A stretch of 64,000 nucleotides of DNA from Tubulanus polymorphus (Eukaryota; Nemertea; Palaeonemertea; Tubulaniformes; Tubulanidae): NCBI RefSeq assembly GCF_964204645.1, contig NC_134027.1, positions 27,516,485 to 27,580,484 of the forward strand. The letters run 5' to 3'. The position numbers were made by a program, and so were the translations under genes. The notes below the pieces were generated by a model that was not told the DNA's origin, made no database searches, and was given only the letters and a program-made list of their open reading frames with translations. Positions 61,401 through 63,880 of this stretch are shown here, piece by piece. Numbering within the stretch: the first letter of the stretch is position 1; each line of letters begins with the position of its first letter.

Positions 61401-63880
61401 GATTGGTCAGCAGTTGGTCAGCTGATTGATTCAACAGCCCTAACCCTAACCCTAGCTGTGATTGGTCAGCAGTTGGTCAGCTGATTGATTCAACAGCCTT
61501 AACCCTAACCCTAGCTGTGATTGGTCAGCAGTTGGTCAGCTGATTGATTCAACAGCCCTAACCCTAACCCTAGCTGTGATTGGTCAGCAGTTGGTCAGCT
61601 GATTGATTCAACAGCCCTAACCCTAACCCTAGCTGTGATTGGTCAGCAGTTGGTCAGCTGATTGATTCAACAGCCCTAACCCTAACCCTAGCTGTGATTG
61701 GTCAGCAGTTGGTCAGCTGATTGATTCAACAGCCCTAACCCTAACCCTAGCTGTGATTGGTCAGCAGATTGATTCAACAGCCCTAACCCTAACCCTAGCT
61801 GTGATTGGTCAGCAGTTGGTCAGCTGATTGATTCAACAGCCCTAACCCTAACCCTAGCTGTGATTGGTCAGCAGGTGGTCAGCTAATTGATTCAACAGCC
61901 CTAACCCTAACCCTAGCTGTGATTGGTCAGCAGTTGGTCAGCTGATACAACAGACAGACAGACCACCACGGTTGACTAGCTGCACCTGTTATGCGATTGT
62001 TATATGTTTCAGCTCAAGTTCTTGCTCAATGTTGCATTGTTAGTTCATTGAAGCTGGGAATAATTATAGATTTTACAACCATATTGAGTAGAAATAGCAA
62101 ATATTCTTAAGAATCTTTTTAATAATATTTACACAATAGTTCTAAAAAGTAGTTTATCTAAAGTAAAATGTATTTCAAAGTATATTTACTTCTAGACCGC
62201 AAGATAAAATCCTAGGTCGAAAAGTTTGGCTAAAATCCAGACAAATAGAGACACGAGGTGATATTCCGTAGTGAAAAAAAAATCAATATCATAAACGATC
62301 AAAGTCTGACAAAATACAAACAGAAATGAGCCGTTGGCCGTCATTGATTGAATAAATGAGCAAATTATTTCAAATTTTTTGAATATACAATCATCGGTTG
62401 ATTTAAATCAGAATTTTGTTTTTGTATTGTCTATGTGTTTCCTCATGCTGTCCCAGATCTCAGTATGTATCGGTGTATCCGGATACTCACCGGGTAAGTT
62501 ATCATCTAATGGACTTTCAGCATCGGTATCGAGTTCAGGCGTACCAACACGAGGTCTTACCGATACAGGACCTTCACGACGAACTACTGAATAACTATAG
62601 AAACAACAGGGGTAGGGTTAGGGGGTGCATTGTATTCAGATAAGGGTTATTCGAACTTTAGGTATAAACACTTACCCAGGATCTGCGTAATCATCTATAC
62701 TGGTATCTACTTCTTGAGAGCCGTCATCAATAGGTGGCACTGGTGTAGCGAACATACGACTTAACATGGTTGAATTGAGCAATGTACTGGATAAACCAGC
62801 GGTATATTGAGGGGACGGTTTAGGTGGAGGCGGGGTCCGTGGAACAGCAGCAAACGTAGCAGTCGGTACAAGAGCAGCAGCAATATGAGCCTGTAATACA
62901 ACAATATGAGCCTGTAATACAACAATATGAGCCTGTAATACAACAATATGAGCCTGTAATACAACAATATGAGCCTGTAATACAACAATATGAGCCTGTA
63001 ATACAACAATATGAGCCTGTAATACAACAATATGAGCCTGTAATACAACAATATGAGCCTGTAATACAACAATATGAGCCTGTAATACAACAATATGAGC
63101 CTGTAATACAACAATATGAGCCTGTAATACAACAATATGAGCCTGTAATACAACAATATGAGCCTGTAATACAACAATATGAGCCTGTAATACAACAATA
63201 TAAGCCTGTAATACAACAATATGAGCCTGTAATATAACAATATACAGTCAGCATCACCAGTAGTAGCAGCAGCAGCAGCTACGACAGCAGCAGCAGCTGC
63301 AGCTACGACAGCAGCAGCAGCAGCAGCAAGTAAGACTCCAGTGTAAGTATGATGATTGATGGTTCTAAGGATGTCAGATACTGCACCGCCATCAATGTGT
63401 TAACTGTTAGTTACAGTCTAATTAACGGGCACCGGACAAACCAGATTTACTGAAGAAAATATGGGTTTGTGAAAATATGCAATCAGATTAAACTTAAACC
63501 ACAACTCCAGAATTTTGTTTTAGAAAATCTAGATTTAGACATTGTGTAAAAACAACGGCTAGATACTAGATACTAGGCTTCGGTAGCTCTGTGGGATAAA
63601 GCGTAATCAATGTTGTTGCATTCACCATCACACTAACATTCTATTAACATTATCAATAAAGTTAATTGAATGATTGTCATAAATGACAAGTTGGTTCTTG
63701 TGATTCGGCTTCAAAACTTCACTTTTGGACGAAAACCAATCTTCGAAACAGTATCCGCGCTCACAGCCTAGTGGAGGATTACTTATTAATGCATATTCAA
63801 TCCTGTTTAACACTTACAAACTCATTTTTCTGCATCTTTTTTCGTTTTTTAGATCCCTTAGCTGCAGTTTCAGTCGCCAT
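52424..63880 (-). CDS. CEP89: CEP89, centriolar distal-appendage coiled-coil protein
   Basis: Builds mother-centriole distal appendages for cilium docking (family knowledge). 21 exons: 63818-63880, 62676-62890, 62491-62594, 60877-61010, 60073-60189, 59670-59702, 58901-59009, 58120-58335, 57320-57475, 56651-56796, 56080-56214, 55569-55681, 55376-55491, 55117-55297, 54553-54720, 54375-54474, 53966-54007, 53352-53441, 53222-53268, 52676-52798, 52424-52595. All phases fit, 859 aa (human 783). Family marks: [10 protein letters not shown] near the N terminus, [13 protein letters not shown] with [12 protein letters not shown] (about 437-465), [23 protein letters not shown] split over two exons. Mostly coiled coil after about 260. 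The basic first exon ([15 protein letters not shown]) does not resemble the human start. The acceptor of exon 2 is tandemly repeated. Confidence 0.9.
53462..53945 (+). mobile_element. LINE (L2/CR1-like) 3' end in CEP89 intron
   Basis: 53735-53825 reads [13 protein letters not shown], a stretch typical of the extreme C terminus of CR1/L2-type ORF2. It is followed by a 3' tail with TGTAAAGCTCAGTGAAAG. 53462-53545 (AATAATAATAATTTTATTT, ACCGCTTTACA) looks like the same kind of 3' end in opposite orientation. Confidence 0.6.
55780..55925. repeat. Interspersed repeat, CACCATAGTAACAATGAG family, copy 2
   Basis: Shares GTAAATCCTCAACCTGGGT, CACCATAGTAACAATGAGG and ATTTCAAAATGTAACTG with 38634-38790. 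Confidence 0.75.
56860..57260. repeat. 53-bp tandem repeat in CEP89 intron
   Basis: Seven units with GAGTTGAGAATCAGGGAACT and CGGTAGC, GACTGCTGTAAATATTTCAC. Two sequence variants (ATTAAGAC and GTCGGGAC) occur in blocks. Confidence 0.9.
57636..58060. repeat. ~420-bp repeat, CEP89 intron copy 1
   Basis: Shares long stretches with 60413-60840 (TGTATTCAGTGTTGGAAGAT, CAGAAACTAGTCAGTAACCT, ACGTTTGA.CTAGTTCAACA). Confidence 0.85.
58551..58755. mobile_element. piggyBac-like MITE with TTAA duplication
   Basis: 197-bp non-coding element (58555-58751) with 12-bp ends CCCTTTCAGTGC / GCACTGAAAGGG and subterminal repeats of GTGCGTCTACA. It is flanked by TTAA (58551-58554, 58752-58755). The related repeat at 38460-38600 has the uninterrupted site ATCAATTAACACAGTCAAAT, acting as an empty-site control. 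Confidence 0.85.
60413..60840. repeat. ~420-bp repeat, CEP89 intron copy 2
   Basis: Second copy of the segment at 57636-58060, same orientation, with a few indels. Confidence 0.85.
61370..61945. repeat. 59-bp minisatellite containing telomere-like CCCTAACCCTAACCCTA
   Basis: About ten units, each with CCCTAACCCTAACCCTAG and then TGTGATTGGTCAGCAGTTGG, in the CEP89 intron between exons 62491-62594 and 60877-61010. One unit is short. The telomere motif is only 2.5-3 repeats per unit. Confidence 0.95.
62881..63245 (-). repeat. 21-bp tandem array of the CEP89 exon 2 splice acceptor
   Basis: About 17 units. On the gene strand each reads GCTCATATTGTTGTATTACAG, so every unit ends in a TTACAG acceptor and begins with the first bases of exon 2 (GCTCATATTG). 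The last acceptor gives the exon at 62676-62890. In the exon frame a unit codes AHIVVLQ without stops. The longer open frames over this array (LYYRLIL, SYCCITG) are other registers. Confidence 0.9.
63255..63332. repeat. CAG/CTG-rich tract
   Basis: AGCAGCAGCAGCTACGACAGC repeats in CEP89 intron 1, just distal to the acceptor array. Non-coding in the model. Confidence 0.85.

Follow-up and report, generated by a model that had tools for sequence, protein, structure and literature searches.

Can a minisatellite that straddles a 3' splice site provide a gene with many usable acceptors, and its protein with a length that varies stepwise? The question is raised by a short array found before exon 2 of a minus-strand gene, in the window analyzed here, a stretch of 64,000 nt corresponding to 27.52-27.58 Mb of a 27.8-Mb contig.

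The gene and the array

The gene is CEP89, as judged from homology. A human CEP89 sequence, consistent with PMC11984960 in its length of 783 and at T35 and P368, was used as tblastn query and gave ordered minus-strand matches from 62887 to 52487, the best with E 2.4e-17. The collinear exons matching this query bear out the identity given in the original prediction. Fourteen exons have been placed, which do not make up the whole gene; a likely exon near 60900 (minus strand) was left uncounted, where a peptide resembles LYAVPHRNQVP of human CEP89. A similar stretch occurs twice in CEP89 introns, at 60610-61038 and about 57900 (minus strand), and is perhaps a dispersed repeat.

The coding part of exon 1 (63 nt; 63818..63880, minus strand), placed by its reading frame and donor, ends at TTT/GTAAGT (slashes mark splice junctions). 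The exon had been predicted to end in phase 0, and does so. The body of exon 2 (62676..62890, minus strand; donor GG/GTAAGT) matches residues 15-94 of human CEP89 with E 3.9e-07. Exon 3 (62491..62594, minus strand) is defined by its splice sites (acceptor CTATAG, donor CCCG/GTGAGT), and continues the frame.

Seventeen ACAG/GC acceptors precede the exon 2 body on the minus strand, and all 16 spacings measure exactly 21 nt. They are numbered from AG1, the most distal (63227..63228, minus strand; assigned from position, motif scan and profile score), to AG17, the exon-proximal one (62891..62892, minus strand; position, exon joining and profile score); the intron would end at base 63227 with AG1 and at 62891 with AG17. 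The minisatellite (62881..63243, minus strand), delimited by TRF and by the acceptor positions, has a period of 21, 17.3 copies and 99% matches. Its unit, GCTCATATTGTTGTATTACAG, is made by the last 11 bases of the intron and 10 bases from the start of exon 2. Both the number of acceptors, given beforehand as about 17 in a 21-bp unit, and the extension of the unit across the intron end and ten exon bases are therefore as predicted. Two variants were found, both at the upstream edge: TTATATTACAG replaces TTGTATTACAG before AG1, and GCTTATA replaces GCTCATA after AG2. CTG/CAG-rich short repeats (63249..63328, minus strand; TRF) lie directly upstream of the array.

Such an array cannot be attributed to chance. 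A DNA search with three units returned no second array locus across the 268-Mb genome (77 contigs), repeat counts in searches of this type being lower bounds, and a protein search of the same 268 Mb with exon 2 returned no locus besides CEP89 exon 2. Perfect repeats can be mis-sized, and the true copy number could be very different from that in the assembly; but the array measures just 363 bp and resides within a 27.8-Mb contig, and an error of this kind is extremely improbable.

Exon 2 measures 215 nt from AG17 (62676-62890), 551 nt from AG1 (62676-63226). When exons 1-3 are joined, 127 residues are encoded via the proximal acceptor, 239 via the distal one, with no stop in either. The unit had been described as 7 codons lacking a stop in the exon frame, and the AG1 and AG17 forms are open through exon 3. 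A TGA in the exon frame is found 21 nt before the end of AG1, so that the open frame begins at the upstream edge of the array. The expectation that upstream acceptors add n copies of AHIVVLQ holds as far as the frame is concerned. The number needs correction, as acceptor 17 itself adjoins the exon body: use of AG1 would add 16 units, and these are 15 AHIVVLQ and 1 AYIVVLQ.

If the flank to AG1 is joined to the exon at AG17, two copies of ATATTG are seen 21 nt apart, flanking the AG. The array probably arose by slippage between these two copies.

The window (1-64000) is very dense in minisatellites: arrays with a period of at least 6 account for 15.2% of its bases, and for 14.8% within the span of CEP89. 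One of the 26 placed splice junctions resides in an array, vs about 3.8 expected for arrays placed without regard to exons (binomial probability of at most one, about 0.09), and none of the other 13 placed CEP89 exons overlaps an array. Arrays may thus avoid exons here, with the exon 2 array as the exception, though the case is not strong. Among 35 arrays with a period of at least 9, the unit is divisible by 3 in 15, and 14 of these 15 have at least one open frame. In-frame openness was accordingly rejected as a signal of selection: being common to 14 of the 35 arrays, the open frame is weak evidence.

Other repeats in the window include a 59-bp array at 61353-61946, some 228 kb from the end of the contig, whose unit contains CCCTAACCCTAACCCTAG, similar to the telomere repeat of animals, and 43 perfect TGC repeats at 21013-21141. 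Three intronless frames, nearly identical and 365-367 residues long, are located on the minus strand at 7682-8785, 9812-10915 and 28714-29811, and look by eye like seven-helix receptors. A more distant seven-helix-like frame is found at 45752-46903 (plus strand), and a frame with many C2H2-type zinc finger motifs, recognized by eye, at 48156-49187 (plus strand).

Acceptor quality and acceptor choice

Array sites were compared with a profile of 23 positions built on the 12 other CEP89 acceptors placed by homology and open frames, the array being excluded. Taken as a ranking rather than as a measure of acceptor strength, as it derives from 12 sites only, the profile assigns 14.6-15.9 to the array sites, -4.9 to 9.35 to the 12 others (leave-one-out), and 4.46 to the best other AG of intron 1. 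None of 7245 other AGs on both window strands, a number that excludes the 12 training sites and the 17 of the array, reaches the AG17 score. Pyrimidines at positions -17 to -4 are 8 of 14 in array acceptors, 6 to 11 in the others, and are ordinary in number. The AG-free stretch before AG2 to AG17 measures 19 nt; as the range in the 12 others is 13-59 nt, one unit is long enough by the gene's own standard. The array acceptors are near identical and fit the profile of the gene very well. The claim that each copy is a plausible acceptor finds support here, since all copies score high and keep the frame.

A branch-point-like CTGAC (63247..63251, minus strand; A at 63248) resides in unique sequence 20 nt before AG1, and the interval is AG-free. 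Five yTnAy motifs were identified by scanning 63227-63400, and CTGAC is the only one with no AG between motif and AG1. Sequence reading indicates that each unit features in addition a weaker branch-like motif, CTCAT (CTTAT in one), 15 nt before its own AG. In 12 other introns CTRAY occurs within 45 nt of the acceptor in three, and yTnAy is missing there in two, which makes the branch-point argument a modest one. The first AG after a branch point is described as strongly preferred, and new AGs between branch point and acceptor as able to provoke exon skipping also (PMC7317903). By this rule the CTGAC before AG1 should favour AG1, and thus the addition of up to 16 units (112 residues). As the most distal acceptor is the one preceded by a branch-like motif with no intervening AG, exon-proximal use would not be the natural default. 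We expect AG1 to be favoured, and the other acceptors to be used to some degree.

AG1 might alternatively be the sole acceptor in use, with the 16 units being exon and the remaining sites silent; copy number would then alter the protein as a coding VNTR does. Such a constitutive coding repeat would agree with the position of CTGAC, with the reported first-AG preference (PMC7317903) and with a frame open throughout. It is somewhat unlikely, because the units carry an acceptor and a yTnAy motif of their own, an AG-free stretch of 19 nt suffices for other acceptors of the gene, and an insert of 112 residues would fall in a conserved N-terminal stretch.

At the other extreme, only AG17 would be used, and the array would be silent intron. 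Signals of the exon body adjoin AG17, and the repeat-free protein aligns best with human CEP89, scoring 119 vs 109 of the distal form. Yet 16 equally good AGs lie upstream, and CTCAT within the unit, at a distance of 15 nt, is the sole possible close branch point. Over 62840-63300 the RNA is moreover less folded than 100 of 100 shuffles (z +4.4), so that no structure is seen which would hide the array acceptors. Exclusive use of AG17 is unlikely. Small introns within the array were also considered, and are unlikely as the only GTs of the unit (ATT/GTTGTA, GTT/GTATTA) make poor donors.

The reading preferred, held tentatively and as quite possible rather than probable, is that a minisatellite set in a real 3' splice site gives 17 near-equal in-frame CEP89 acceptors, and hence length-variable isoforms. 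Slippage at ATATTG would have produced the first extra acceptor, with the original branch point retained on its upstream side and the body of exon 2 on its downstream side. The spliceosome would mostly pick AG1, the first AG past the old branch point, and the branch-like CTCAT in the units would allow a part of the splicing events to use acceptors further downstream. The N-terminal helix of the resulting CEP89 isoforms would differ in length by multiples of 7 residues, 112 at most, the maximum extension being set by the inherited copy number. As proposed beforehand, array length may vary between individuals, the 17.3 copies being those of a single assembly.

The N-terminal region of the protein

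Exon 1 adds a basic stretch and an F, extending the match to human CEP89 to F-x-HI. Support from the match across this junction is weak: 95 of 5000 shuffles of the exon 1 peptide do no worse. This fits a reading in which splicing does not connect exon 1, as called, to exon 2, the true gene start lies elsewhere, and the array is untranslated or unused sequence. A good start context, the GTAAGT donor, the matching phase and the F-x-HI match itself across the junction argue to the contrary, and make this reading very improbable. AAVPRTPPP likewise matches the N-terminus of human CEP89. The repeat-free form is probably the older protein form, since human CEP89 matches without repeats.

Residues 1-343 of human CEP89 are reported to be required for binding to NCS1, which captures preciliary vesicles, and AlphaFold2 places the very N-terminal helix of the human protein in the NCS1 pocket (PMC11984960). 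The array interrupts the stretch which matches this helix, whose AHI recurs in each unit. The genome contains a likely NCS1 orthologue (64% over residues 1-126; C2:30469825-30470202). Any effect of the array on NCS1 binding is speculation.

The AlphaFold2 model of the array plus exon 2 (183 residues, single sequence, no alignment) features one helix, at residues 2-124, which takes in the repeats and the beginning of exon 2. pLDDT is at least 90 at 114 residues and pTM is 0.42; a perfect repeat modelled in isolation carries little weight. Foldseek against PDB found no match to this model, and a PDB sequence search none to exon 2. In Pfam, exon 2 hit RCDG1, and the frame with the repeat hit DivIC, SPAM, SlyX and DUF1192, all below the curated cut-offs.

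In a more far-reaching form, each animal would produce a ladder of CEP89 isoforms, extended by anything from 0 to 16 AHIVVLQ heptads, and every heptad would duplicate a portion of the helix that is predicted to engage NCS1. How far the protein reaches at the distal appendage, or how many NCS1 hooks it offers there, would depend jointly on splice choice and on copy number, as a heritable, stochastic length dial on a ciliary adaptor. This extension of the preferred reading is quite improbable.

Comparison with known systems

The array is a natural test of how the spliceosome selects an acceptor when many near-identical ones are present in cis; the effects of branch-point distance, proximity to the exon and transcription order could be separated by junction counts. 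It may also illustrate a route by which a minisatellite born at a splice site becomes coding, as copies are inserted downstream of the old branch point and ahead of the exon. The stretch affected is the counterpart of the human CEP89 segment that is predicted to hold NCS1 (PMC11984960).

The original prediction likened the array to NAGNAG acceptors, which similarly are neighbouring sites giving small in-frame differences (PMC3250501). NAGNAG sites, as described there, feature two AGs at a spacing of 3 nt, in contrast to 17 AGs at 21 nt in CEP89, where units have their own tract and branch-like motif. The comparison is a poor one, as the spacing is 21 nt throughout, and the donor minisatellites of IFI6 and ABCA7 are nearer. 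An exact-word search of the open-licence literature found no acceptor version of a splice-site minisatellite, an absence of little weight.

The splice-donor minisatellite of IFI6 was reportedly described by Turri et al. in Nucleic Acids Research in 1995 (23:1854). In IFI6 (also 6-16 or G1P3) a minisatellite of splice donors (PMC4526556) resembles the CEP89 array in that repeats at an exon edge supply several splice sites, and hence several mRNAs; donors are repeated in IFI6, acceptors in CEP89. The VNTR in intron 18 of ABCA7 varies in copy number, from about 12 to 427, and affects splicing; a downstream copy of the donor is used, and one unit is retained (PMC5954066). Use of a repeated donor with retention of one unit makes ABCA7 a precedent for the mechanism proposed above. 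As in CEP89, the ABCA7 unit holds the exon's own splice site. In contrast, the ABCA7 site is a donor, the unit measures 25 bp and its retention shifts the frame, whereas in CEP89 the site is an acceptor, the unit measures 21 bp and the frame is kept. The CEP89 unit contains the splice site of its own exon, as is proper of a splice-site minisatellite, but the repeated site is an acceptor and not a donor of the IFI6 and ABCA7 kind; the array is for this reason best viewed as a variant of that kind, rather than as a member of it.
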